A stretch of 64,000 nt of DNA from Parelaphostrongylus tenuis. Its lineage: Eukaryota > Nematoda > Chromadorea > Rhabditida > Metastrongylidae. Every line of letters starts with the position of its first letter. The stretch's first letter is position 1. A program made the translations under genes and the position numbers. Below the pieces are notes generated by a model. It searched no databases, was not told the DNA's origin, and worked only from the letters and a program-made list of their open reading frames with translations. Of the stretch, positions 2,621 through 61,385 are shown in pieces. The stretch spans positions 124,001-188,000 of the forward strand of contig JAHQIW010002262.1 in assembly GCA_019055375.1 (NCBI GenBank). Direction: 5' to 3'.

Positions 2621-3894
2621 TTTGAAATCATCGGTTTTCAAGTTATTGATCATGGACTGACTAGCCGAGCGAGGAATGCGAGACATGGGTCAAACATGAT
2701 TTTCTTCTTGCTGCTACACCGCACTAAGAGATCCTTTTTAAAAACCAAGCGCATTGTCAAAATCATTGAGAGCTAGACAATCGAATGATTTTCAATAGTC
2801 TAAGCAGAAAGCGAAAATATGTCACTGTCCAAGAGTTGAATAATAGAACATAATAAGATATAGAATAATATCATTAAAGAGATTTCGGAAAGAGATTATA
2901 AGTAAAACACACACCTATGTGTTAAACCCTTGTTTTATCGAACACACCATATCATTGCGGAAGCTAAGAATTTTTCCAAGTACTATCAAACGTTTTCTCT
3001 TATTTTAGTGATGTCCTTGGAGTAATTCGGTAGATTGAAAAATACAGTCCATAGTAAAAAACTTGGTTTCCGAAAAGACTGTAATAAAACGTTCTGCTAA
3101 TGAAAAGAAGATTACAGTTTGCTTCTGCAATCCACTTTCCAGCCACAGCTGATTTTTGATATTATATAGCATATCTTCGATTCTAAAGCAACTTTACCAC
3201 AACAACAAATAGAGCAACAATGAAGGGACTTTCGTCAACATATTTTCAAAAGGAAAAGCGTTGAGTTGTTCTGAAAATCCCTCCTGTTTGACTTTTTTGA
3301 AGCAAAAGTTACACTCAGGGGAAAGCAGCGTATTCTAACTCTTTCTACACATTTCATCCGACGATTATGTAGAAGTTTAATTTGAGGCCACATCTTCCAC
3401 AATGCATGCTTTTTAGAAAAAAACAAATCCAATAGAGGCTTCAACATGTAGTTGGAGTAAGGCTTTATCAAGCCCGCATTCACTTGTTTGAGGCGTGCAC
3501 CTTGAAAAAAATCCATTTTTCTGACCCTGACCCATTTCTTCTTATGCTGAAACTTTTATCCAGCAATCAACAAGTTATCGGATCGACATCGGTTGTAAAC
3601 AGTTTACCTTCAGTCACTCGTTATCACCAATCAACAACTTATCTTTGCTGGGTAGATTTTCTATCTCTCACAGCCAACAAGTAATACTTCTTGCCATTTC
3701 AGTAAACTACTAGTAGTCATTCGATAGCTTGTGGAATAAAGAAATGAATAGTTGGCCAAAATTTTGCATTTAATTATCACAAGATCCGTGGTGAAGTTAA
3801 GCAACGGGTTATCTACTCCAAAAGTGGAACGACGTCTTCTTTTCGTTTGTAAAGTGGTTAGGAATTCTAGCTTCGAGGAACATGAAATATGAGA
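2621..3894. other. No gene seen
   Basis: AT-rich sequence with only short overlapping frames on both strands. I see no exon signals, RNA gene or recognisable repeat. Confidence 0.5.
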
Positions 3895-4165
3895 AAGACT
3901 TTCAAAATTGAAAAAATATTCAAAGCCTAAGCGAGGTTGGTACGACAGGGCCATACACCGGTGTTCAGGAGATCTCGTCCTCCTCGTTAGTGAACCACGC
4001 CCCACAGTAAGGCCTGCATTGTAGCAAGGAGGAAGGCGTATATGGTGACGGTACATTGGACAATGACACTGGTCCATCACCACCTTTCGGTCGATGGATC
4101 TCGGCTGGTAGAGCAGAATTGATCCATGGCATCGACTGTTTCCAAAACCGCGCAATAAACATTTG
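3895..4165 (-). repeat. Single old copy of the hammerhead repeat unit
   Basis: This is a diverged monomer of the unit repeated at 27.0-28.0 kb, in the same orientation as the three minus-strand units. It keeps the hammerhead region, the CCTCCTTGCTACAATG stretch, the hairpin built on GGTGA/TCACC and the ATCGACTG stem. Its ends lie at TATTCAAAG (left) and ACATTTGAAATA (right), equivalent to the ends of the monomer at 61.1 kb, so single copies have fixed ends. Confidence 0.85.
3948..3996 (-). ncRNA. Decayed hammerhead ribozyme
   Basis: Read on the minus strand, stem I is GGUUCA/UGGCCC (weakened), the core is CUAACGA instead of CUGANGA, stem II is GGAG...CUCC with a longer loop, and UGAA replaces GAAA. 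Stem III ACACC/GGUGU is intact. Two core changes (G5 to A and the GAAA block) should abolish cleavage. It is a fossil of the 27 kb ribozyme. Confidence 0.75.
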
Positions 4166-6379
4166 AAATAGTTTAAAAAAGAGAATGCAAAAGACTATCT
4201 TAGTAAAATAGTGAAGTCCTCAAAGGCCTTATTGGCTCTATGCTAACGCTTATGAGTCGGAATATGTTCACCAAATCATCATTGATTTCGATGCGACACT
4301 ATGATTGCATCCGACGTAACGAAACAAATGTCATATTCAAGTTACTCAGTCTGAGAAACACTCATCATTGGAACCTCCTGCTGTCGACTCCACTTATATG
4401 TATTAGGTCTATCGCTACATTTTTAGTCACCAATGTGAGGATGCGAAAGCAAATGTGCTCAGAAAACGAAAAAGATATTTTTCCAAAAGCAGCACAGTAC
4501 AATAGGATACCCTTCAAGTTTCTTCAAAGTACACTTTAGTGTTTTCTTTCCACAGAATATCTCCAAGATCAATCCCTTGAACTTGAGTGTGATCGCTTTG
4601 AGGTTTATACGCAGCGGATTTTTAGTCCTGATTTCATACGAGCAACTATCAAATTAAACTTCCGTAGTAATTAGAGCGTATCTATTAGAAAAACTTGGTA
4701 GTGCCTTAGTTACAGTGAGCATTAATGGGGAAACTATTCAAAGCGGCTAAAAGCATTGACCGCTTAGATCACAGCACACCTTTTGGAATAATTGATGCGA
4801 GATATAAGATAAATGCTAACAATGAGCAAGCCATAATGCTCTATGCCAGTTTCGAATTACACGGAAATTCAAAACCAAAGCATTCGACCAACATAAGTAC
4901 GTAAGTGTATCAAAATTTGAAGACAGTGAAGAATATAATGAAAATACATGCTTTTAACACAGTATATAAGAGGGTACAAGGAGATACAAAACAAAACTTG
5001 GTATGAAAGGGAATAATACACTTTTCCAGACAGAGAACTGGATCTTTTTAAATCTTCATCTTCACATATGCAGTTGTTAGAATGATCGACGATCGAAGCA
5101 TAAAATAATGTTAGGTTTCATAAAAAACTAGAAAAAAACTCAAGTTGCGGCATAATAATAATCAAAATTTGATGGGAGTGATTGATTGAGAATATTGCTG
5201 AAATTCACTAGAACTTTGAAGATATAAACGAAACTTACTTTTCAAGGTGGTTCTGATGCCACCTCAACGTCTTCCAATAAGGGCACACGTGATAATGCAG
5301 ATTGTTTAGGAGCACCGTCTCTGTTATACATAAATTGATAAAAGAAAAAATTCCCAAAAAGAAGATGACAACTAACCAATAAGCCGACCTTCGTCTTATT
5401 GACACCGCTGAAGGTCATGAGATGAGACTATAATTACTATGAAAAAGAAGCGGCAATAACTCTGTTTCAAATATGACTCAGTTTGATAGAGTGAGGATGT
5501 CATGATGAGCAAGTGCTTTCTTGACAGTGCTCAGAACAAGTACGCATGAATAAGTGCACATATTACAGACAAGATTAAAATAAGTACATCTCTGAGCTTG
5601 CATACAGAACTGAGAAATTTTGAAACATTGTTTAGCTAAGCCTGGAAGAACATTCAGGTGCTCCATAAGAGAATTCGTTCAAAAACAGCGCTATAGCAAA
5701 AAACCCTTCAGCTGATCCTATTCATGGCAATCAATCTAAATCAAACTTATTTCTACCATTTTTACTCTTGTCTTGCCATTATGAATTACAAGGGTGTTGC
5801 CAATGAAAGACACTTTATTGATTCGTTTTAACAGTGTTCTCTTTTTCATTGTGAGGATCCCAGTACTTCTAGCAATCGTTATTTAAAAGTATATGGAATA
5901 CACCTGGTGTTATAACATCTGGAGATTTGTGAACGAATTAAGCTATAACTCCACTCTTTCGCAAAAGGGATTCAATGAGATAAGCCCATCTGATTATATA
6001 TAAATACAACACCTTCAAGAACTTTGCAACACTGGTAAGAACTGCGGCTTAATCGATAAACACTAATCGGCCACTCTAAAGTAATTTGAAATATTAGAAA
6101 AGAACGAAAAAACGCTCAATCAAATTTCCTACACAAAACGCAAAAAGTAACAGTGAACATTAATATTTTGCAAAGTGCCTAACAACGTTGCGATTACATT
6201 TCTACCAAAAACACAACCTGGAGACTGAGTGTTGCTACGGAACCTAATTTGTCATCAGTTCACTAACTAAAATAGCATTGCTCCTGTTGGGAGTCGTACA
6301 AAGATCACAAGCGCAGAAACTTGGAATGAGTTATGTAGTAAGCAAGCAGGCAAAATATTAGGTCGTTTCACAAGTTCTG
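4166..6379. other. No gene seen; short SINE-B tail at 5845-5885
   Basis: Mostly featureless AT-rich DNA. At 5845-5885 the string GTGAGGATCCCAGTACTTCT matches, with one difference, the end of the minus-strand SINE-B copy at 39549, so a SINE-B remnant lies here on the minus strand. No credible exon was found. Confidence 0.45.
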
Positions 6380-16004: not shown

Positions 16005-16011
16005 TCGCATA

Positions 16012-16054
16012 GTGCAAGACACGTGTTTCGGCTTTTTAGTCCCACCAGGTGCAC
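16012..16054 (-). ncRNA. Hammerhead-like motif, minus strand
   Basis: In minus sense: stem I GUGCA(C)/(U)UGCAC, core CUGGUGG (two A to G changes from CUGAUGA), a stem II segment ending in GCC, intact GAAAC, and stem III ACACGUGU followed by C at the cleavage position. The fold is preserved but the core is mutated, so it is probably inactive. Confidence 0.6.
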
Positions 16055-16423
16055 GGTGCCTTTTGTTTCAGCCAATCTCCTTTGGGGGAAACCCCCACAT
16101 ATAAAGGAATCGACGACGAGCAACTTACACTGCTGTAAGGTGAAAAATAGCCCATCACGCCGTGTTTTGCAGTCACTTGCTCTTGTCTAGTAAAACTTAT
16201 CATGTAGTATAAGGCTCAAAAATGCTATCATATTATATTGTTTTAGGTTAAAACTCCAAAAAGAAAGGTATTACATAATAAGTCTTACTAGTCACGAGCA
16301 GTTGACTGCAAAACACCGCATCACAGGTGGTCTTTTCACCTTATGGCAAGGTAAGTTCTTGGTCATAGATTCCTTCATATGTGGAGGATCCCCCTACAAG
16401 GATTGGCTGGAAGGAAAGTCACC

Positions 16424-16466
16424 GTGGAACTGATAGGGTTGGAAGGCCGAAACATGTGTCTTGCAT
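16424..16466 (+). ncRNA. Hammerhead-like motif, plus strand
   Basis: Inverted partner of the motif at 16012. Stem I GUGGAA/UUGCAU has one mismatch, the core reads CUGAUAG, stem II GGUUGGAAGGCC can pair partly, GAAAC is intact and stem III is ACAUGUGU. One core base (G8) is changed, so cleavage is doubtful. Confidence 0.6.
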
Positions 16467-16470
16467 TATA

Positions 16471-17185: not shown

Positions 17186-17363
17186 TATATAACTTAGAGA
17201 ACTGAGTGATGAGCAAAAGCACTAAACACGAATGAGTGGTCGGGCAAATGTGCCTCGGTGGTGTAGTGGTTAGAGCACGCGTCCCCGGATAGTACAAAAC
17301 GCGAGTTAGATTCCCGCCTGAGGCCGCGTTTTTGCTCACCACTCAATTCTCTAAGTTACATAA
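17186..17363. repeat. Terminal-inverted-repeat element with a tRNA-like core
   Basis: Arms of about 33 bp (17186-17218 and 17331-17363) pair almost perfectly: AACTTAGAGAACTGAGTGATGAGCAAAA on the left, read in two halves, faces its complement on the right. Between them lies a 73 bp tRNA-like sequence. Two weaker relatives occur at 42289-42408 and 61820-61933. The design, DNA-transposon-like ends around a polymerase III promoter, is unusual. Confidence 0.8.
17252..17324 (+). tRNA. tRNA-like sequence, not a functional tRNA
   Basis: Exactly 73 nt. The acceptor stem GCCUCGG/CUGAGGC pairs over all seven positions (one G-U). The A box TGGTGTAGTGGTTAGAGCAC and a B-box-like GAGTTAGATTCCC are present, and the T stem has four of five pairs, abutting the acceptor strand as in a tRNA. 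The anticodon region is degenerate (stem CGCGU/ACGCG with a 16 nt loop), so no anticodon can be assigned. It likely served as the promoter of the surrounding element. Confidence 0.6.
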
Positions 17364-18687: not shown

Positions 18688-21600
18688 GTGAAGTTTGTTC
18701 TCAATCACGGTTTGATTTAACTCTCTCGAGATGAGCTTGAATCAATCCATGCGTCATTATTTTTGCTCCTCCATAAAAATTTTAGGTATGGCTCGCTGGC
18801 CCAACAACGATGGTAGTGGGACTCGTCTTGTGTGGTAAGGTTAGTGTTCTTCTACTTGCTGAGGCATATGTGAGCGCTGCAAACCATTTCTTTCTTTCGG
18901 CAAAGCAAATGTTACAGGTGATAATAGATTGGGGCCCGGCGATGTTACACGCGAGAGAGGGCTCTATCGACTCTAGATTAATGGAGCATTATGTACAGGT
19001 CTGTTTCATACTAGCTGAATTTTACTACAATTCAAAGGAACAACATTGCTGTTTCAGGCTGGTTTCCAATTGCCAGGAATAGTTGATCCTTTGAACAATG
19101 AAAGATGTTCCAAACACCTTTCAACCAAGCATGAACCAAGACGCAATGGTTCGCTCTTGATGGGCTCGACAACAGAACAGTCATCATGCATGGCTGAAGC
19201 TGTTCCTTTATTAGATCACGATGTGTTGCATCCAAACTCACAGTACCTCATGTTATCGCAGCACTACTCATCGACCAACGATTGTAACGTGAGTTTTCAA
19301 ACCACATCAACAGATATCGCTCAAATTTCTCACATTAATCCTAATTTCCCATACTCCACTGCCAAATTTTGCAAATATCTTATCTTGGTAAATGTAATAC
19401 TGGCTACTTCTCCAACAAATCCACTTTGATTAGAAAATACTACAGGAACAACACAGAGGGTCTTACTACATACTGTGTAGACACCGAGCAATGATATCAT
19501 CACTTATAACTTGTGCAATATGATATTGCCTGATATCAACACGCAGTTGCTGGCAGGCTAGAGAAGTTTTTCAACCTCTGTGAAAGTTATTCAGATGCCA
19601 CTTCGATGTTCATTACTTAGAGTAGAGTATTATTATAAATGTCATTAGAGAAAATCTCCCTCAAAACCACATTTTCTGCCACGCTTCTGCACTTCATACA
19701 GAGTATGGCTCAATGTGGAATGAAGCGAGATGCAAACTCTTTTAAGCGGGAAAAGTTGAAATCTCCGAAACATATAAAGTGCGAGAAGACATTTCCTATC
19801 AAGTGCATTTGGCTAGATTATTCTTTAGTGGCTCAGTATGGTCATGGAAAACATGTCGCGGTGTTTGAAAATAGACTCGGATATGAGTAATATTACGAAC
19901 CGCAAGATGAATTTTAGGTAACTTCTAGCTATTTGACTCCACCGTTTTGGTAAAAACGATGTGCAGGATACTCAAGCACTTCGGCATAAGCTAGCATGGG
20001 TTTATCTACGCGCTTGCAAAAGATTTCAAATATTATGTCTTTTCATCACTTAGGCAGTAGAGCAAAAACACCAAATTTGGTAATATATATGGATTATTGG
20101 TAGTCATTTGAGAGCCCAAATCTCGACATCATGGGTTGAACTTCATAGTGGGTCTATTAAGCAATGTGGAACAGAAAAAATTTTGCACCTGTAGAACAAT
20201 AGAACAAAGTGTTCTCAACTATACCTGTACAAAAAGTCTGGAAAGGCTTCCGGAAAGGACAAAAGTTTCTAACTAAGTGACACCGTGCGCAGAGATTTCA
20301 ACTACCGTCTCGATAAAGCGACTCACTCGAGAGCCGCGCGATTTCTTCAACATATTTTGAAATTTTCTCCCCTTTGCGGAAAAAATTGCTAGGTTTTTTG
20401 TATATGTATGATCATTCTATAAGTTTTGGCACTAGAGCAATGAACACCAAATTTATCAACCAGAAGTAATTGAAATGGATGATTTTGGTATTGTTCGATT
20501 TCGCATTTTGTTGCGAATATTTTGGCATACAATTTGCCTATACCTGCTATGAAAGGGAGCTATCTTGGGAACAAATTCCCTTGCTATTCATGCATGAATG
20601 GAGCGTAAAGGAAAATGCTAGTGACGCGGCGTGCAAGATTAAGGGAACTTGAGGCGATAATACGGTCGTAGAAAAGACGGCTAGGGAGTGGTCCCCTGAG
20701 TTCAGTGCTGGAGAGAACAGTGTGGAAGATCAGTCGTTCTCGTGCCGTCCACAGGGAGCTCCATTAATCTTGCGCACCACTTCATTAGCATTTTCCCCTC
20801 CGCGCCATCCGTGCATGAGTAACAAGCGAATTTGTTTCACCGTAGGGCAAGTATGGGCAAGTTGTAGACCAAAATGTTCACAAGAAAATTTACAGTTGAG
20901 TCATATCAAAATTATATAGTTTTAGTTATTTTTGTTTGATAAATTTGGTGGTCAGTGCTCTGGTGTGATACCCATGGGACGACCTAATATGGCAATTGTA
21001 GGAGAGACTTTGTTCTATCGTTTTGCAGGTGCAGAATTTTCTTTTGTTTCGCACCAGCAAATAGAACCTTTATAATGTTTGAGCGACGAGCCAACTATTG
21101 TATATGATTGAAATGATTTTCGTTTTGCTCTAACAGCGATCTATATAGACCGTTTTGAAAATCAGTCTCAGCATCAAAATTGTCAAAATTCGGGCTATTG
21201 AATGACTACCAGTAATTCATGTATGCTATTGATTTTGGTGTTTATTGCTCTAGATTCAAAACTCATGAGAAGACCCAATACCGGAAATCAGTCCGAAGCA
21301 ATGATGTGTTTAGAGGAAGGTCACGCATATTCTTGACTACGGGATTCGGAGACACTACGAGAAAAAAGTGTGGTCAATGTGCGTGATTGTTTTTCTTCAA
21401 CTTGTCATTGAGCGGTAAATGTTGTCTTCGACTGGATAAATGCTCGAATTTTATTTGTTTTGCTATTGGCCAGAAAGTGAATAACTCATGAGTTGAATCA
21501 TACCTCTGAATCTTTATAAAAGCCGCAAGCTCGACTGCCGGTCACACATCGGCAGGTAATACCATCATCCGACTTGGATGATTATTTTTACTCGGCGTCG

Positions 21601-24600: not shown

Positions 24601-27600
24601 TTTCAGGGAGAATCATTTGTTCTTAATGAAAGAAACTACTTCATATAAATTTCAAACAGGTCTTGACTCCTTGTGTCTTTCACCTATATCTATTTACACA
24701 TAAGTATATTCCTGTCAAAATGCGAAACTTGTAAATTTAACGTCTTCCAAATTAGTTAAGGGATATAATTAAGCCAATCTGTACTTTTCAACGGGTAAAC
24801 AACAGCAAGATACAGTTACATTTTGTTGCCACTATTAGTTCGTTCACATTGTCCTGCTTTTTGGCTTTCTCAGAAATGTCCACCACCTTTCAAGTGGTAT
24901 TGTATTACCTTTATCTACTGATCACGAAGGTAGTGACCAACTGTTTTTGGTCTCGCTCATTTCCGGATGACTCTTACGAAAGCCAATAACCCTTCCACTT
25001 TTTCCTGAAGCCTGCAAGAGTAGCCTAGTGGGATTATCATCTCTTCAGGATCTGTCGTGTATTATATTTTCCTTCTAGCGCTTATGTAAAGAATTCTGGC
25101 CATGTTTAGTACCCTGAGATATTCAATAAGTAACTACTCTTGTTCTTGGCTGTGGTGAAGCCCGTCACGTGTCGGGGTCACCTAATTTTCGACAATGTGA
25201 CGCATGGAACGGCATCTTGGATTTTTGATCGTTTGCGCAGATCAGAGCTTCCTTTTTTGGTCATTTATTCAACTGTTTTTAGAACCTCGTTTTTTAGATT
25301 TCGATATATTCAATGAGGCTGATTTTAGCTCTTTTCAAGGTTTGTTACGTTAGTGCTTAGTACGTTTCGGCGATCTCGCTCGTCTCGTCAGAGCCACACG
25401 CCGCATAGTCACCACCTATGTAGTGAGAAAGGGGAAAAGCAGCATATCAAGATCTAATGACATGAAATGTCGTCTATGCTTTTTAAACAGTCGATCGCAC
25501 ATGACTTTCTTTCATGATTTGGACATTGTCATTCATTCGACCATTTTCATAATCTCGTCTTTAGAATATCGATGTACCCAGGAAGGTTGAGTCCAGCCAT
25601 TTGCGAGGTTTGTTACAGCAGGCATCTGCCATCGGCTCTAAAAAACGAACCAGAAGACACTTCATATTGTCAGGTCTTAATATGATGCGTCTCCACTTCT
25701 CTAGCATGTAGGGATGGCTCTAACGAGGCTAGCGAAATGTGCGAAACGTACGTGAACCAGTGACGTAATAAATCTCGAAAACGGCTAAAATCAGCCTCCT
25801 AAATATATCATTTATTTGATTAGCAAGATACGAGATACTTCTAACATCGACCTTTCATCTGCACGTTCAATAACAACAAGTGGATCTTTCATACTGCTTA
25901 CGTAGAGATGAGATTTTTGAAGCACACGGTAAAATAAAGGTGACTGTTAAGTCGTTCAGGTGTGCATAAGTCAATTGCCCTTTGTTCTCTTCGATAAATT
26001 CCCAATACTCTTAGAGACCACTTCAGCCACTCGCTTCCTTCTGCTCAGTTGTGAATAAGTCTTAATCACATCGATTCTCAACCTGGATAGACGTAAATGA
26101 AGATTCCGGAGAGAGGTTCAGCTGAGTGTTAACGGAGCACGCGAAACTAATCTCTTTCTCATGATTTTCGTTTTTCTGGGATCAAGTCGAACACCAATCT
26201 TTCCATAAGCGTTGTCGAAGTCCGTCGAGTTCGGTTCGGTCTGGATGATGTTTGGTATTATAAGAGCAATCTCACCAGCAGATCGAAGATGGTATATTTG
26301 TTGACCATCTATTTCTACCTCTACACTGCCCTATTCCAGTGTTTGGATGACTCTTTGGTGGATAGCAGTAGATAATTTTGACGTAATGGCGCGACCAGGT
26401 CCTTCATACATGAGTCGGATGCAAGTGAGCGTGCATACACATCGCCACATTAGCCTTTCGAGATGTAGGGACCTTAGATTGTTCTTGAAATTTTAACACT
26501 CATTAGATGTCAAGGGAATGAGGTTCGATCTCTCTGCTGAGTTCAGTCTCATATACCCATTGTTCACCTCTAAATGTGAGGATTGCATAATCACAAGTGG
26601 CTTGTCAGTCTTTCTCACAGTGAACAAGTATTAGCTTATTTGGTAGAGGTGATTCGCATTTCCCTCTTAGTCTACTTCTCACTCATTATCGCAAGCTTTG
26701 TACAATTTTGAAAGGTGAAATAGATTTAGAGTATGTGCCAAACTGAGACAAGGAAGAACGAGGTTCATCCCCGTATTCATCTGCGTCTTAAAAGAGTATA
26801 AGACAACGTTTGGTCTACGTTTAAGCCCCTATACACTTTCGGGAAGCCCCTCACGTGAATTCGTGACTAACGGATCAGTGATCCATCTGTAAGAAAGATC
26901 CGTGACATAACTACACACATTTCCAGATCTCATTACTCAAAACTGTCACTTTTTACAACTTATTACTGTTGCCACCGAAACACACATACCTACATATATA
27001 GAGACATTCAATATAATTCCAAAAAAAGAATGATTTAAGCTCAAAAAAGGGGTTGGTAAGCCCAGGGTCATACACCGGTGTTTCGGAGGTTCGTCCTCCT
27101 CATCAGTGACCCCCGCCCCACATTCAGCCCTGCATTGAAGCAAGGAGGGTGGCGTATGTGGTGATGGCACAGTGTACTATGACACTGTACCATCACCACC
27201 TCTCAGTCGATAGATTTTTCTGTTAGATCAAAACTATATCAAAAGATCGACTGTTTTTGAAACCCCCAAAAAACATTCAATATAATTCCAAAAAAAAGAA
27301 TGATTTAAGCTCAAAAAAGGGGTTGGTAAGCCCAGGGTCATACACCGGTGTTTCGGAGGTTCGTCCTCCTCATCAGTGACCCCCGCCCCACATTCAGCCC
27401 TGCATTGAAGCAAGGAGGGTGGCGTATGTGGTGATGGCACAGTGTACTATGACACTGTACCATCACCACCTCTCAGTCGATAGATTTTTGCTGTTAGATC
27501 AAAACTATATCAAAAGATCGACTGTTTTTGAAACCCCCAAAAAACATTCAATATAATTCCAAAAAAAAGAATGATTTAAGCTCAAAAAAGGGGTTGGTAA

Positions 27601-30600
27601 GCCCAGGGTCATACACCGGTGTTTCGGAGGTTCGTCCTCCTCATCAGTGACCCCCGCCCCACATTCAGCCCTGCATTGAAGCAAGGAGGGTGGCGTATGT
27701 GGTGATGGCACAGTGTACTATGACACTGTACCATCACCACCTCTCAGTCGATAGATTTTTGCTGTTAGATCAAAACTATATCAAAAGATCGACTGTTTTT
27801 GAAACCCCCAAAAAACATTCAATATAATTCCAAAAAAAGAATGATTTAAGCTCAAAAAAGGGGTTGGTAAGCCCAGGGGCGGGGGTCACTGATGAGGAGG
27901 ACGAACCTCCGAAACACCGGTGTATGACCCTGGGCTTACCAACCCCTTTTTTGAGCTTAAATCATTCTTTTTTTTGGAATTATATTGAATGTTTTTTGGG
28001 GGTTTCAAAAACAGTCGATCTTTTGATATATAGAGACATATTTACATATACATACATATATACATACCTACATACATACGTACATACATACATACATAAA
28101 GGATAAAAGGACAAAGCTCTCGGCGTTAATCAATCCCTGAGGGATGCGCCATGCATTCGACTTCAATTTTTAACTTCGTTTGAGGTGACTGAATGCACAT
28201 CTGGCCTTTACAATGACTCGCGGTGGCTCCCGCTGAACCGAGTCAGTGCTGCTTATCCTTCCAGACAAGTCTGAGACCAGTCTAGTACCAATTTACCGAC
28301 CCCGGAGGGATGGATGGCTTGGTGAGCCATGAGCGCGAGATCGAACCACTGATCTCGTGTGCGACGCAGTGCACTATATGCACGCATACACACACGAGTG
28401 CATGCATGCATATATACATACATACATACGTGCATATATATACATATATAAACATATATGTATATTCAAACGCACAGTATGATCTTTTTGAAACGCACAG
28501 TTCCCTCAAACTTTCAGTAATCACTCCATAGCTTAAATTTCGGTGGTTTAAATAGCGCAGTTTTTTTTTATAGGACATCTTCTTAGAGTGCTATAGCGGC
28601 GAAATTAGGACCACATTTACCCAGAGGTCTCAAGTTTAATGCTTTCGAATCTCTGCTTTGATCCTATCTGATCGTCAGTTTGACTGTGCTTATCACCTTC
28701 AAGAAAGTTTTCTAATGGATTTTCTATGACTAGCATACACAAATTAGGACATATGTGGACGACCATCAGAATTTATGCCAGTTTCTACATTTCTCTTCTT
28801 TGTTCCTTTTCGAAATTAACTTGCATTTATGAAGCTACAAAAAATATTGCGCGAGCTTGTACGACCGGAAACGCTCAAATGGAAAAGAATGTTATATTTC
28901 AATGCACTGAAACCGGAAGATGAATGACAAATTTGTCGAAACTTCCAGTTTTTCTTTAAGGTTGCAGAAATATAGCTAGTGTACTCACAAAGAATACAGG
29001 TTGGCTCACGGTGTTACCAAAGCGAAAGTAAAGATTGGAGAAACCCTAAGATATACAATGATCATTTCGCCCCTTCTTTCTGGGCTCATCAAACCTTATC
29101 CCCCTCGAGACCGGCAAAATGATAAGTTTGGGAGAACAGAAGTGCTGAACTGATTGCCGACGCTCTTACATCAGACATGCATTCAACTACCTCCACCGTA
29201 CTGATAAAGCCGTATGATCGGCGCGACTCTGAGCATTTGGCGACTTAACATCAAATGCTTTAACATTTATTATTTTTTCCATGAACAAAAATTAGTGCAT
29301 ATTATGCTCACCAAATAAGTCATTATTCTTTGAGTAAACCTTTGCATTGTTCAAGTCAGCTCTGTGATAAAATGAGGCATGATCACTTACGTTTGAACAA
29401 TTTTTCGCTAATGTTCTGAGTCAGAGGGCACTAATTTCAATTTGAGCTTAAGTGCACAATGAAGTTAGTCATCTGTCGCGCATTAGTGCTCTTTTTCTTG
29501 CAGCAGGACAAAGCTGTCTTAAATTCAAGAATAATCTTGATAACGCTCACTCCACATCCTATCATGATTTCCTGATTGCGTACAATGTGTTCACTGAACC
29601 AATGCTCTTGAAAAACCGTGTGCTTTTCGTCCAGTGACACTTGTGACATAGCATATGACTATCGATACAGTAATAATTTTGATAATTTTGATATAATAAC
29701 AATATTTGGATTATAAGCTTCTGCAAGACAATAGATGCGTTGGAGCATACAGTTCTTTGATTGTATTATAGCATGTAAGGCTATTCTGCTGCTGAAGTAA
29801 AAATTATCGCTCAATTCTTTCTCCACCCGGGAACATGCCGTAGTTGTACACATAATTTTGTCTACCAAATTCGCAAAGTGTGCTGGAAAATAGTGGCAGA
29901 TTCTAATGGGGCTCAATCATTATATCGGTCACTGAGCTGCCCGTGATGACGGTCATAATATATCTGAAAATCTCTAATTGTTCTGAACATAATCGTTGAA
30001 TTTCTCCTTCACATAGTCAACGGAGGATTTCAGATGGAGACGATAGAACACTGTATGATGACTAATTTCAACGATAGGGGTAAAATGGTTTTCTCTGTGT
30101 TAAAGGGTTGCACTGATAATACTCACTGAGAAACAAAAACAAAATGAACGCTGTTACATTTGCCTGTTAGCGAAGGAACTGTTGATCTTTCGTAGCATAT
30201 CAGATGGAGATGTTTCACTACCGTAATCATGTTGTGACATTGATGGCCTTTATCTTTGCATCGACCCTTGTTGTATTGCTCCCATGATAACGAGGTAAAT
30301 TCCAGCTACATTACTGAGACAGACTTGGACCTGAGAAAGGCGTAAACAACTCCAAGACGGCTTGAGTGCAGTTCCATTTTATGTCAGTCACAACTCTGTC
30401 ATCGTGGCAAGGTGACTTAGAATGAAGCCGTCTGAGAGCACTAAGAATCGTTTCATTAATCCGCCAGATGACATCAGTAAGGTCTCTCGTTTCATCTCAT
30501 AGTCGTTAAGTTTTTGAGCTTTGAATAAGCTCCACTCTTTCGTCTATTTTTTCTACTTTTTTGATGCAACTGATGACAACTGAGTTTCTTGTTGTTCATT

Positions 30601-33600
30601 TCCAATTTATAACGTTGAGGAAGATTGATGCGATGGTCAGAAGAGCAGTGATCAGCAAGTTGTTGACACAAAAAATGCTAGAGATCGTGTCATATTTTTA
30701 CAGAATCATTGATGAGATTACAAGTACATCTAGCGAAATGATTTAAACATGAGTGTTAAATACGAGAACTAAGTGATCCACTCAGGTGACGACATTAGAG
30801 AGGTGGAAGGCGAGTGACGAAGTGATGCGAGCAGTTGGCGAATTGAAGTAGTCAACAATGTACTTGCTGCATTGCTGACTATTTTAGTTCTTCGTGTATA
30901 TGTATATGTAGCTGCCTATAAAAGTGATGGAAGACTTGAGGAGAAATGTTCATCGCCTTCCTTTAGTTATCTCACAACGTATTCCACGCACAGTATAGTC
31001 TACGTGAAAACGCCAACCGACTTTTTGAAGCCGTGTTTTGATCCCCTTGAGCCCTTCTTCTAATTTTTGAACTGAAAGAATAGAACGACGATTTCGAAAA
31101 ACTAGTTCACTGAGTCTTTTCTAATTAGTGGATAAATATTGATCTCAATGCGATGCTCTGATTGTACGCTATGGCTAATAAGATTAAAAAGGATTGTTAC
31201 GAATGTTTTCTATTGGCAACACCCCAACGATTTCGCCTTCTTCAGAGCACCGATGACTTGAATCGAGTGCCCATATCAGTTGTCCCCCCTAATGTTGTTG
31301 GTCTTAGTAGTTGTTCCACCTAAGCGAATCGAGTAGAGGTGGACATACGACTAAAATAGCATCCTCAACGCTACACACGGCTCCTCTCGTTCCGAAGTGA
31401 TCCAATATCACTCGACTGTACCGAAGCATTCAAGACGATACGATATGGCTCCTGATTGAATGTCAACCAATATTGTTCATAGCCATCGATAAAACAATAC
31501 AATGACTATTGAATGTTGTACTGATGTGGCGTCGCCGAAACGTACATATACCTTTAGAAATGCCTTTACCAGACCTCTGAAAGGCTTGAAATGTTCTATC
31601 AGATTACATTGATTATTTACGTTGCCGAAAGACGGCGTTGACAATATGAAAATTGTCTTGATTAATTACTACTTCCACGTTATTTTATGTTTTTCTATTC
31701 CAAATATTTTGATGGCTTCACATCGCTAAACAATATCTCTTTTGCAAATGTTGTCGTATACTTTCTATAATCAGTCTGCTGTATGGTGAATTATCCTAAC
31801 AAATGACGAATGTCCTTCCGTCCTTACTAGCCACTACTAGATTACTAAGCTCCTCACAGACTGACATCTGTAGAACCGCCAGGAAATAGTGGCGTCTCTT
31901 AACAGTGCTATTTCTCGCCGGACAGCGCGCAGAACGTTTTATTTCTCTTGCGACTATTGCCCATAGATTTTTAATATGTAATATTTCACATGGAGATAGT
32001 AAACGCAAGAGTCCAATGTTTAAACGTGTTTCACGGCGGAAATACTCAGTCATCGTAGCGCACTATGAACCATAAATGCTTCAAGGAATAATAAGTAGTG
32101 CGACAGACGACAACACGGTTATCAATTCGTCGAATTCGATTTACACTATCGCTAATCTTCTGAACGATGACGGTAAACAGAGTTGTTGACAGTGAAAGAA
32201 ACACTTAGAAGTTTACGAATCCGATCGGTGGGCGGTGTCGGGGGAACACAGTGTGTGGGCGCTGGCGCTCACGTGGCTGCGCTCTACCGATCGCATCGAG
32301 TGCGACCGCCACTAGCGCCGACCCGACTCGCCTCGTCACATTCATCCAGAAAAACGATCGATTATGCGACTTTTCACTTCCAACGGCAAGTCCTTTTCCA
32401 GAAGGAATTGATCGATTTGAAGACGCAGTTTGGTAGTCACATTGGCATTGTCACTCTCTAGCACAATTTCGATTAAGATCGAGTGAAATCCACGCGAGTT
32501 GACGATTTGGTTGAGTGACGTCATCAGTTCAAGTTCTGAGCTACTGGTTAGTACACCAAAGACTTCCCCACTATTTGTGCTACAATTGAAACTTAAGAAA
32601 GTTATGTAATTTTGTTTTCGACACGCTTTTGAGTGTACATGGCGTTTCTTGTTTTCATTTGGTATACATCATTTCTGTTCCGATTAGTAACAGATCTTTC
32701 TAGCAAACATCGTTTAAAGGATTTCCTTCGAACAGTTATTGTTCATCTCATCTCGTCTGTTCTGCGTTAGCAGCTAGCTTTCGTTGGCCTAATACAGTCT
32801 CTTCACATTATGTGCTTGAAATTAGCCCTTTCGTTATGAAACAAGTTTTTTTTCAATAACAGAAGATAATTTTTCTTCGATTAAAGAAGTATTTTGGCCC
32901 CTGGACTTCCGTGGACCCAAATCAACGCAACGTCACTCGGCATTGCAGCTCACAGTCGCCTAAAACGTGAGCTTCCACATTGTTCTTAATGTTCGTTGGA
33001 TTTATTTATCTCTGGCGCAAATTCATGCTGTTTGTTTCGATGTTGAACGATCGCGCCTAGAGGTCAAGCACAAGAAACTTTAAGGAGGTTGAAACTTTTT
33101 GAGAAATTTGCTCTACAGATAGATAAACCTGACGATCTATTGAGAACATTGTGGAAGCTCATATTCTAGACGACTGGGCGCTGCAATGCCGAGAATGCAA
33201 TATACTATTAAGAACAATATAGCTTATATTCTAGACGGTATGGCGCTGTAATGTTGTGTGTCGTCCCACTAAATTAGTTTGGTAAACTCAACGACACTAT
33301 CAACAACAACTTGGAAGCTTAAAATTCTAGACGGCTAGGCGCTGTAAGTTATGTTTTGAGTACTCGGATGTTAAAGGGTTAAGAGTGGAGAACTTTATGC
33401 ATTTGTGAAACTTTGTTGTATCGCATTGGTTGCGGGTATATTTTTGAATTTGTGGACGTTATTTGAGATATCGAGGTCTTTCAAGCAATAGTGGCTAGTT
33501 GTAAACTCAAGAAATGCATTCGTAGACAGTATGATTCCTTATCAGATAAAAGTGTGCTTGTTCACTCGAATTCATAATCAAAATATGAGCCTTTCAACAA

Positions 33601-47721: not shown

Positions 47722-47955
47722 ATAAAACCCTATCATTGCCTCAACTAGAGGGAATGCAAGATTACATTATTGTTGTTGCTTTGATATATGACAATCGAGA
47801 AAACTTATCTTGATTAGCTGGCGCGAGGTTGGTAAAGTAGTCGTAGAAATTCGGCTGACGTTTTGGCGACCCGCCTTCTTCAGAGCCTGGGCGTATGTAG
47901 TGTTAGTCTATTTGAATGATTCGGATAGTCTTATTTATATGCTGCCTAGGTCAGG

Positions 47956-48190
47956 TTAAAAGATAAAACGAAGAAAGGGCGCGAGATCTCGTGTGATGGT
48001 GACACATTCTTCCTTCCGGTTTATTTCGGGGTTTTTGGCGTTTATCCAAAATGCCTCAAGAGTTTTGTGCGTGGATGTTTTTGATCCCTGCGCCAGGATT
48101 GTGACAGTCACATCTAAATCCTTGTTGTTGTGTTTTTGTGCCCTATGTAAACCTAAAGGTTTGGTTTTATCTATTTTGGACTTACTGTCT
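47956..48190 (-). pseudogene. Penelope-like GIY-YIG C-terminal fragment, left arm
   Basis: Minus-strand coding: GLHRAQKHNNKDLDVTVTI, then STHKTLEAFWINAKNPEINR and a stop after RFIF. The LEA-x-x-I-x-x-x-NP-x-xNR pattern is the end of GIY-YIG endonuclease domains in Penelope-like elements. The upstream reverse transcriptase is absent. Confidence 0.65.
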
Positions 48191-48246
48191 AGATGTTCTT
48201 TTATGCTGATGAAAAGTGGTCTACATCTACAGTCTAAAATACATCT

Positions 48247-48481
48247 AGACAGTAAGTTTAAAATAGATAAAACCAAACCTTTAGGTTTACATAGGGCACA
48301 AAAACACAACAACAAGGATTTTGATGTGACTGTCACAATCCTGGCGCAGGGATCAAAAACATCCACGCGCAAAACTCTTGAGGCATTTTGGATAAACGCA
48401 AAAAACCCCGAAATGAACCGGAAGGAAGAATGTGTCACCATCACACGAGATCTCGCGTCCTTTCTTCGTTTTATCTTCTAA
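48247..48481 (+). pseudogene. Penelope-like GIY-YIG C-terminal fragment, right arm
   Basis: Plus-strand counterpart of 47956-48190 with few differences: KTLEAFWINAKNPEMNRKEE, then ITRDLASFLRFIF and TAA. The 162-codon frames on both strands are longer only because they read through the opposite arm. Confidence 0.65.
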
Positions 48482-48644
48482 CCTGACCTAGGCAGCATAT
48501 AAATAAGACCATCCGAATCATTCAAATAGACTAACACTACATACGCCCAGGCTCTGAAGAAGGCGGGTCGCCGAAACTCTTCGACTACTTTACCAACCTC
48601 GCGCCAGCTAATCAAGATAAGTTTTCTCGATTTTCATATATCAA

Positions 48645-49104
48645 TTGATTATGCCGAGGTTTATAGAAAGTCGAACTTTTGAATTGTTGTTGTTTTCTTT
48701 ACTAAAATTGAATTGTGAACAATAAGCATTCGTGTGCCCTCATTATAAGAAATATTTTTTCAACACTACATCTCTATTGTTGAATCATGTAATACTTTTC
48801 GCGGGTGCTTTTTGTGTCTCAAGATTAATTCCTAGTTTTTCAACACTGGATTGAGTTTTACACAGTCGGAAACACACGTGTTGCCTTCTGTTCTGACTGA
48901 AATATAATTGATGTTCACCTTATTGTCTACTGAAAACTGTAATTAGGTCAATGCTTGTGTCACAATGAAATTCCACACCCACGTTGTTCTTTTAGTTCTT
49001 AGCAAGACGTGATTAATTGTTATGAACTATGCTAAATAGCCCGGGAAACGTCGAGTTGGCTACACACACAGATCTGTGGTCAACGTTATGGATTATATCC
49101 AGCG
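48645..49104. other. No gene seen
   Basis: Short AT-rich stretch downstream of the palindrome; nothing assigned. Confidence 0.4.
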
Positions 49105-59552: not shown

Positions 59553-59555
59553 TGT

Positions 59556-60608
59556 TTCATCAATCAAACATTTTCGGATGTAGTTTGCTGAGTTTGAACA
59601 ACGCAGCATATCGGCGGCTTGTTCGCCGATATTCCGAAAAAGTGTCTGCCCTATCAACCTGATGGTAGTCTATTAGTCTACCATGGTTATTACGGGTAGC
59701 GGAGAATAAGGGTTCGACTCCGGAGAGGGAGCCTTAGAAACGGCTACCACATCCAAGGAAGGCAGCAGGCGCGAAACTTATCCAACCTTGAATAGATGAT
59801 ATAGTGACTAAAAATAAAAAGACCATTCCTATGGAACGGTCATTTCAATGAGTTGATCATAAACCTTTTTTCGAGTATCAAGTGGAGGGCAAGTCTGGTC
59901 TCAGCAGCCGCAGTAATTCCAGCTGCACTAGTGTAAATCGTCATTGCTGCGGTTAAAAAGCTCGTAGTTGGATCTGATTCGCATGCAATGATTCGCCTTT
60001 GGCGTTAATCATTGTTGTGACTATTTGCTGGTTTTCGATTGAAATTTCGATTTCTATAGTGGATAGCGATTTTTTTTTTTGAATAGTTTCCTTGAATGGT
60101 CAATCATGGAATAATAAAAGAGGACTTCGGTTCTATTCATTGGTTCAGGAACTGAAATAATGATTAAGAGGGACAATTCGAGGGCATTCGTATCCTTGCG
60201 CGAGAGGTGAAAGCCGTGGACCGCAGGGGGACGCCGTAAAGCGAAAGCATTTGCAAAGAATGTCTTCATTAATCAAGAACGGAAGTCAGAGGTTTGAAGG
60301 CGATTAGATACCGCCCTAGTTCTGACCGTAAACTATGCCATCTAGCGATCCGATGGGGTATTGTTGCCTTGTCGAGGAGCTTCGCGGGAGCGAAAGTCTT
60401 TCGGTTCCTGGGGTAGTATGGTTGCAAAGCTGAAACTTAAAGAAATTGACGGAATGGCACCACCAGGAGTGGAGCCTGCGGCTTAATTTGACTCAACACT
60501 GGAGAACTCACCAGGCCCGGATACCGTAAGGATTGACAGTTTGAAAGCTCTTTCTCGATTTGGTGGTCGGTGGTGCATGGCCGTTCTTAGTTGGTGGAGC
60601 GATTTGTT
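59556..60608 (+). rRNA. Degenerate partial 18S rRNA (pseudogene)
   Basis: About 1.05 kb of small-subunit rRNA, roughly positions 260-1300. Landmarks: AAAAAGTGTCTGCCCTATCA (59637), GACTCCGGAGAGGGAGCC (59716), AACGGCTACCACATCC, CAGCAGCCGC (59904), AAAAAGCTCGTAGTTGGATC (59956), GGCGATTAGATACCGCCC (60298), AAATTGACGGAA (60443), GGAGTGGAGCCTGCGGCTTA, GGTGGTGCATGGCCGTTCTT (60569). It stops at GGAGCGATTTG, where 18S should continue. Universally conserved bases are changed (CAGCAGCCGCAGTAA for CAGCAGCCGCGGTAA; GGAATGGCAC for GGAAGGGCAC; CACCAGGCCC for CACCCGGCCC), so it is not functional. Confidence 0.9.
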
Positions 60609-61027
60609 TCATGCATATGCTAGGATATATGTCGCTTAGGAAGATGTATTATCAATAATTTTTCACCTGACTATTACAAATATCTTGAGTTCATTTTGGT
60701 CTTGTCGGTTAGAGAAGAAGTTGTAACTTATCAACTGGTATATTACTGCGAGGACAGTCTTTTATGGAGCAATTAGAGTTCTACATTGATACTTCATAAG
60801 CATTCGATTTATTATAAGAAGTTCAGAAACTAAACTTCTGCGCAACAAAATAAAAGACCGCGAACTCCGTGGAGTCTCAAGAAGCTAAGTTTACTACTAA
60901 TTAGTGTAAAAGTTTATTATTTAAACCATAAGTGATGTTTTACGCAGTGTCTCGTTACACTATTTATATTTTTGATTTATTTATGAAATATTGAATTCGT
61001 ACTTATTTTTCAGAAAGTGCATCGTCT
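60609..61027. other. No gene seen
   Basis: AT-rich sequence after the 18S break; nothing assigned. Confidence 0.4.
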
Positions 61028-61062: not shown

Positions 61063-61075
61063 CATAAATATATAG
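61028..61075. repeat. (TA)n-rich microsatellite
   Basis: Two TA runs interrupted by TATGTATA, just upstream of the hammerhead monomer. Another pure (TA)n run is at 61618-61640. Confidence 0.9.
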
Positions 61076-61104
61076 CTTAGGTTTAAAACATCTTTTTTTT
61101 CAAA

Positions 61105-61385
61105 TTAATTCAAATGTTTATTGTGAGGTTTAAAAACAGTCGATGTTGCTCTACCAGCCGAGATCTACCGACATAGAAGTGGTGAAAGTACAATGTCATT
61201 GTACACTATCCCGTCACCACGTACGCCTTCCTCTTGCTACAATGGAAGGCTTACTGTGGGGCGTGGTTCATTGACGAGGAGGGCGAGACCTCCGAAACAT
61301 GCGTGTATGGCCGTGGCGTACCAATCTCGCTTAGGCTTCAAACATTCTTTTTTTTATGAAATTATTTTGAATATAAATAAATAAG
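61105..61385 (+). repeat. Single old copy of the hammerhead repeat unit
   Basis: Plus-strand monomer of the 27 kb unit. It keeps AAAACAGTCGAT, the hairpin GTGGTGA...TCACCAC (with an inner AGTACAAT/ATTGTACACT stem), CCTCTTGCTACAATG, TGTGGGGCGTGG and the hammerhead. Start and end match those of the 3.9 kb monomer. Confidence 0.85.
61265..61313 (+). ncRNA. Decayed hammerhead ribozyme
   Basis: Stem I GGUUCA/UGGCC partly pairs; core UUGACGA differs from CUGANGA at C3; stem II GGAGG-GCGAGA-CCUCC is perfect; GAAA intact; stem III ACAUG/CGUGU with one G-U; GUA at the cleavage position. The C3 change should block catalysis while the fold is kept. Confidence 0.75.

Follow-up and report, generated by a model that had tools for sequence, protein, structure and literature searches.

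The closest described counterparts of the element considered here are the metazoan retrozymes without long terminal repeats (non-LTR retrozymes) and the Penelope-like elements (PLEs). Animal retrozymes are reported to accumulate as circles, and their priming and mobilizer were left open, with PLEs named as a strong candidate (Cervera and de la Pena, 2020; PMC7229834). Purified PLE protein cuts and extends both DNA strands. Its reverse transcription begins at two adjacent internal sites of the RNA, and the interval between them is a genomic tail of 30-40 bp; this mode of initiation is described as unique to PLEs (PMC11167929). Head-to-head is the commonest arrangement of Penelope inverted repeats and was interpreted as self-priming (PMC3846280). 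The present analysis concerns an insertion at 27 kb in a stretch of 64,000 nt (the window) from the nematode Parelaphostrongylus tenuis (contig JAHQIW010002262.1, positions 124,001-188,000, forward strand). The insertion is very probably a non-autonomous hammerhead element, or retrozyme, with PLE-type ends, likely copied and inserted by the reverse transcriptase (RT) and endonuclease of a host PLE.

An initial annotation of the window had recognized at this position a tandem array with exact type I hammerheads, and three units of 270-271 nt were indeed confirmed on the minus strand. Tandem Repeats Finder places the array at 27004-27878 (271 bp x 3.2, 99% matches). The lengths from cleavage site to cleavage site are 271 and 270, small indels are the sole differences between units, and the cleavage point that had been placed at 27070/27071 is correct for the minus strand. 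As the account of a plain tandem array, however, the annotation captured only part of the structure, because the three units stand head-to-head with a 155-nt inverted copy that it did not mention (Table 1). Metazoan non-LTR retrozymes are recognized by a unit of 150-450 bp, a target-site duplication (TSD) longer than 4 bp, a GC content below 50% and an intact type I core in each unit. At this locus the unit is 271 bp, the TSD 14 bp and the GC content 0.443, and the type I core of each unit is intact. By the sequence features examined, the element works like a retrozyme and is one; the designation as retrozyme-like is supported by the array, the exact motifs, a scan of simulated windows and the copies elsewhere in the genome. 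Unlike PLEs, it has no open reading frame (ORF) for RT or GIY-YIG, and its arms consist of repeated rounds of the 271-nt unit. Of the ORFs with at least 110 aa, none overlaps 27003-28030, and no Pfam domain was found in the six frames of 15-30 kb. Since an RT/GIY-YIG ORF is lacking, the element is not itself a PLE.

Table 1. Positions in the window of the retrozyme insertion, the resident PLE and the old family copies.
Feature	Position	Strand	Description
Left TSD of retrozyme, ATATATAGAGACAT	26994..27007		exact 14-bp direct repeat; last 4 bases match element too
Minus-strand arm	27004..27878	-	3.2 units in tandem, each 270-271 nt; RNA 3' end on outer side, at unit nt 64-68
Hammerhead 1, core to cleavage site	27071..27106	-	predicted cut between 27071 and 27070
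Hammerhead 2	27341..27376	-	exact motif
Hammerhead 3	27612..27647	-	exact motif
Central joint of arms	27876..27878		3-bp shared GGG
Plus-strand arm	27876..28030	+	155 nt, 100% inverted repeat, head-to-head with minus arm; outer RNA 3' end at unit nt 101-106
Hammerhead 4	27889..27924	+	intact, within 155-nt inverted arm
Right TSD of retrozyme, ATATATAGAGACAT	28026..28039		exact 14-bp direct repeat; first bases match element too
Left TSD of window PLE, ATTGTTGTTGCTT	47769..47781		13 bp, 1 mismatch to right copy
Decayed 5'-truncated PLE	47782..48682		head-to-head, self-inverted 92% over 879 columns; remnant of GIY-YIG carboxy-terminal end
Right TSD of window PLE, ATTGTTGTTGTTT	48683..48695		13 bp
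Old diverged family copy	3894..4191	-	~78% identical to array unit, ~1.1 units, ribozyme core mutated; edges approximate
Old diverged family copy	61075..61372	+	~74% identical to array unit, ~1.1 units, core mutated (TTGACGA); left edge approximate

The hammerhead is fully paired, as had been claimed for stems I and II. Stem I (GGGUCA/UGACCC) has 6 bp, stem II (GGAGG/CCUCC) 5 bp, and stem III 3 bp capped by CCGG, the sequence of stem III, ACACCGGUGU, being a palindrome. A scan for the full motif found four hammerheads in the window, compared with a total of one across 100 simulated windows matched in dinucleotide composition. The covariance-model check that had been proposed gave a negative result: Rfam reported no hammerhead at the gathering score, and the best permissive match was to Hammerhead_3 (14.4 bits, E = 1). 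The permissive matches in the window were otherwise mostly to microRNA families, with no useful hammerhead match. When folded alone, a single 50-nt motif favors another structure (-18.0 versus -15.6 kcal/mol for the hammerhead), and the unconstrained cofold of two 50-nt motifs is a double hammerhead of -51.5 kcal/mol. These energies suggest that multimers would be cleaved in dimeric form, with a monomer circle protected in part. The hammerhead satellites of the newt and axolotl are similar in possessing a type I hammerhead, a tandem repeat and a palindromic stem III loop, and in being predicted to work best as a dimer (in PMC7229834). In contrast to these satellites, the present element has a longer stem III (3 bp and CCGG), a 271-nt unit and a nematode host. 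Stem III also differs from that of the host PLE motif, which has ACGU only.

The insertion belongs to a family with many copies. A search of the worm's own assembly (481.5 Mb) returned at least 280 family matches, the scoring having covered 40 of the 982 candidates. From the match list 41 genome stretches were chosen, which together with the window locus hold 43 element pieces. Five of these (L052, L056, L069, L070 and L071) reach the edge of their stretch and were left out, with L056 and C1459 kept for the comparison of variants only, and 38 are uncut. The head-to-head layout, with the minus arm on the left and the plus arm on the right, occurs in 27 of the 38, so that the RNA 5' ends meet at the center and the RNA 3' ends lie outside; 11 are one-stranded and none is tail-to-tail. 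Because L045 duplicates L032, the 27 represent 26 distinct loci. L032 and L045 are one insertion on two contigs, alike in flanks, TSD and joint and with small differences between units, and are probably two haplotypes. The central joints show either overlap or filler. At these joints (L031-L068 and the window), the 5' ends of the arms occur more densely in unit nt 21-50 (25 of 67), which might reflect a tendency of the polymerase to stop in that interval. An older one-stranded array of the family, ~92% identical to the unit and with a 13-bp TSD of its own, is present at L033:418-1382. The core mutations of the two old copies in the window differ from each other. The family pattern had no matches in viral-contig and genome-contig collections, from which records near the source genome may be excluded.

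Exact TSDs of 10-15 bp were found by scripted reading at 26 distinct loci, 13 of them with a TSD of 12 bp and seven with one of 13 bp. A strict search accounts for 22 of the 26, and its control of 200 mismatched flank pairs reached 10 bp at best. The other four (L044, L046, L055 and L059) come from a wider search, which also caught element-internal repeats (L043, L053 and L065) and, at the window, a flank repeat.

The outer 3' ends of the arms are concentrated at two places in the unit, nt 1 being the first base after cleavage. In 18 of the TSD-bearing loci an RNA 3' end lies on either outer side, and in all 18 exactly one end falls in nt 98-119 (median 102.5), a range chosen after the first 20 stretches. 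Seven of the 18 (among L055-L068) were fetched after the pattern had been noticed in those 20. The second outer end lies at nt 51-64 in 14 of the 18 loci. When partners were shuffled in a hand-read set of 19, the value of 19/19 was reached once in 100,000. Seven head-to-head loci without a 10-bp TSD stand outside the 18 (L035, L047, L048, L051, L054, L058 and L067), and exactly one end falls in nt 98-119 in four of them. L064 is head-to-head in the orientation count and also stands outside the 18, as the second of its arms measures just 38 nt. Microhomology of at least 2 nt with the TSD was seen at 24 of 44 outer 3' ends, a raw count with no chance level.

PLEs are also resident in this genome. 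A search for GIY-YIG gave at least 150 matches, all 150 of those scored, from 1,723 candidates in all. Adjacent opposite-strand hits within 5 kb were minus-then-plus, that is, head-to-head, in 20 of 20 cases (hand-typed list), and two further neighbors were on the same strand. One ORF, at L077, encodes both RT and GIY-YIG domains (Pfam). Among the 120 of 180 protein matches listed, its named relatives are nematodes such as Ancylostoma, Haemonchus and Angiostrongylus, with 65-78% identity to the Angiostrongylus proteins across roughly one half to two thirds of the query length. The decayed PLE in the window is 51% identical to the L077 protein across 91 aa, had no Pfam match of its own, and has lost ~12 nt near the hammerhead in its second arm. 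In the PLE at L082, which has an 11-bp TSD (GTATCCATATT), the arms end 61 and 104 nt after the predicted hammerhead cut; the retrozyme arms end ~57 and 102 nt after theirs.

The similarity extends to the sequence between the hammerhead and the far end. In directed alignments, none of 2000 simulated sequences scored as well against the window PLE as this module of the retrozyme, and none of 2000 as well as the tail of the old copy C. For the retrozyme tail against L082, one of 2000 did so. CTTTTGA stands at the far site in both the retrozyme and the window PLE. A stem of the window PLE, AACCTCG/CGAGGTT, has AACCCC/GGGGGTT as its counterpart in the array; one two-sided change between them preserves the pairing, and six or seven of the seven pairs of the stem form in the five sequences compared. 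Thus the ends of the retrozyme are of the same kind as those of the worm's own PLEs, and therefore PLEs likely copy the element. The earlier proposal that it is copied by the RT of another element is supported by the structure of the insertions, with a PLE as the likely partner. Like PLEs, the retrozyme has head-to-head arms between TSDs, two internal start sites tens of nt apart, and a hammerhead upstream of them (PMC11167929; PMC3846280). PLEs were also proposed as mobilizer for the metazoan non-LTR retrozymes; what distinguishes the present family from these is the mostly head-to-head layout, the two preferred end sites and the PLE-like end module (PMC7229834).

Two further hammerhead-like loci were observed. 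At 25260-25800 in the window lies a head-to-head pair, at 25391-25364 on the minus strand and 25720-25747 on the plus strand, the latter with one mismatch. It has a ACGAGGTTCTAAAAACAGT stretch resembling the PLE tail and is perhaps a second hammerhead or PLE family. The other is a hammerhead-like core at L082:2740 that lies beyond the PLE insert and has CGAGGTCTCAAAAACACTCG downstream; it may represent another retrozyme family with the same module.

Based on the structure, spacing and sequence of these ends, PLE proteins are the putative mobilizer, and the following sequence of events can be proposed. The hammerheads of multimeric transcripts would cleave them, probably after pairing up into dimers at the palindromic stem III, and a host ligase would close the units into circles. 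The module that follows the hammerhead would then be bound by the PLE protein, whose GIY-YIG nuclease would make a staggered cut, leaving 3' overhangs of ~12 nt. Each of the two overhangs would serve as a primer on the RNA, one at about nt 102 and the other in most cases at about nt 57, and 2-5 nt would often be paired. Each complementary DNA (cDNA) could circle the template several times, and the two cDNAs would finally be joined at the center through microhomology or filler. SINEs (short interspersed elements) share a 3' tail with their partner LINEs (long interspersed elements), so that a non-autonomous RNA imitates the reverse-transcription start signal of its partner. On balance, we favor the view that animal retrozymes stand to PLEs as SINEs stand to LINEs, in that a double start signal behind the hammerhead would let one circle be seized by both ends of the cut target, each at its own start site, and copied over many rounds by two polymerases at once, giving head-to-head arrays within a 12-bp TSD. 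Compared with SINE/LINE pairs, the partner here would be a PLE, and the signal would be internal, used twice and copied in repeated rounds.

Other routes to such insertions have to be weighed. Ordinary target-primed reverse transcription by a LINE, for example of the RTE type, might mobilize the element, with the inverted arm produced by twin priming as in L1. LINE insertions commonly have TSDs of 12-13 bp and terminal microhomology, and those found here are compatible with this route; one L1 study reportedly gave a TSD of 15 bp, and a protein that shares the dispersed repeat of the window is one that we take to be RTE-like. Twin priming, however, affects a minority of LINE inserts, and the LINE 3' end lies at the 3' terminus of the RNA and is usually tailed. 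Here, inversion is found in 27 of 38 elements, no A-tail was seen by eye in the flanks of the first 20 stretches, and the outer ends are two preferred internal sites (one of them in nt 98-119 in 18/18), as in PLEs (PMC11167929). Together with the spacing and sequence that resident PLEs have in common with the retrozyme, this makes the involvement of a LINE improbable. Even less credit is due to snap-back self-priming of the first cDNA as the origin of the inverted arm. The 3-bp overlap at the central joint would fit such an event, and inverted repeats of Penelope have been read in this way (PMC3846280). A snap-back copy would nevertheless end anywhere, while each of the two arms has its outer end at a preferred site, and both arms can be long (877 and 894 nt in L034). 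It is because of these preferred sites that both twin priming and snap-back are set aside. The notion that the family is satellite DNA spread by recombination accounts for tandem units at many places, but it is scarcely credible given exact TSDs at 26 distinct loci on many contigs, 22 of them from the search whose control went no higher than 10 bp.

A closer question is whether the template is an uncleaved linear multimer and not a circle, with the remainder of the PLE mechanism unchanged. This is possible, if somewhat doubtful. It would agree with unit variants being mixed inside single insertions (L040 and L051), and published PLE insertion in vitro uses unprocessed RNA, with hammerhead mutants inserting normally (PMC11167929). 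Arms of ~10 units with only one or two substitutions (L032 and L045) speak for a circle, as does L056, in which A207G is present in all six covering units of both arms and is otherwise seen in one unit only (L034). The accumulation of published animal retrozymes as circles (PMC7229834) points the same way. The occurrence of A207G throughout L056 also points to the same RNA as the source of both arms. In the C1459 pieces, C181T occurs in units of both arms, although not in every unit. The template RNA is probably circular, but the mixture of variants in L040 and L051 means that one monomer circle need not lie behind every insertion.

Several observations weigh against copying of an RNA circle by PLE proteins, or against parts of its support. 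The range of nt 98-119 was drawn from data that it then described, the second end falls outside nt 51-64 in four of the 18 loci (at 37, 30, 11 and 269), and three of the 26 distinct head-to-head loci do not fit the end pattern (L048, 67/35; L058, 68/61; L054, 271/127, with unclear ends). The spacing from end to end is 37-62 nt in 14 loci (median 46.5), above the published 30-40. At least 1 nt is shared with the TSD at 29 of 44 ends, whereas published PLE starts are not homologous to the cut DNA, and the published start site is alike on both strands (PMC11167929). In that system insertion also proceeds without hammerhead cleavage, as noted above. A single orientation is all that 11 of the 38 uncut elements have, and TSDs of at least 10 bp are present in 27 of the 38, duplicate included, and absent in 11. 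The wider TSD search was noisy, with 14 of 300 mismatched flank pairs reaching 10 or more before element-internal repeats were dropped, and the mostly 12-13 bp duplications contrast with the 8-10 bp of rotifers (PMC3846280). Both ends were measured exactly in one PLE, L082, and the values in the decayed window PLE are 75 and ~102 nt. The alignment of the old copy A with the window PLE is weak (23/2000), and when the unit was compared with the PLE loci L072-L081 by plain blastn, nothing significant emerged, the one match being 23 nt long (E = 0.61). Additionally, compensatory changes in the hammerhead and hairpin stems are absent among three family copies, so these stems are supported by pairing only.

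The surroundings of the insertion provide some further context. The nematode origin assigned in the initial annotation is supported by an ORF of a dispersed repeat in the window, which matches a P. tenuis protein (E = 3.1e-4), and by the nematode relatives of the resident PLE protein; the host is likely a strongylid close to the lungworms. The same annotation placed the array in an intron. A Pfam scan of translations (X at stops) covered six frames over 15-60 kb and two plus frames over 1-15 kb. No domain was found in the six frames of 15-60 kb at E 0.05, and there was no match in the two plus frames of 1-15 kb. Because the scan also missed the decayed PLE at 47.8-48.7 kb, its negative result fits an intron and an intergenic location alike. 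Ten long ORFs of the window gave two Pfam matches, both below the cut-off, and the ORF at 46568-47047 had no match in a protein search. The dispersed repeat with the match to a P. tenuis protein is SINE-like and ~280 bp long and occurs at 28096-28374 and at about ten other places, and the retrozyme is inserted ~60 bp from one copy. At 59553-60788, a divergent sequence resembling small-subunit rRNA, perhaps a pseudogene, adjoins a dispersed SINE-like repeat. A tRNA-like Rfam match (33.9 bits) at 17252-17325, not called by ARAGORN, is perhaps the head of a SINE. Three self-inverted stretches with 66-70% identity (16009-16469, 20430-20965 and 32936-33193) are possibly decayed head-to-head insertions.

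In the open literature searched, outside which most subscription papers lie, no paper was found that joins retrozymes with the tail signature or reports retrozymes in nematodes, and none on type I hammerheads together with nematodes. The one paper found in which retrozymes and nematodes both come up concerns human ribozymes, to judge from its title (PMC11620745). The words 'inverted' and 'nematode' are absent from the main text of PMC7229834, and the word 'retrozyme' does not occur in PMC11167929.

In conclusion, the retrozyme paper of 2020 did not settle how hammerhead RNAs return to the genomes of animals and put PLEs forward only as a strong candidate (PMC7229834). The structure, spacing and sequence of the ends now tie one retrozyme family to the resident PLEs at many loci. 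This adds a nematode to the hosts of retrozymes and predicts two positions at which reverse transcription would start on the 271-nt RNA. If the association is general, the tail signature would name the mobilizer of retrozymes across animals.

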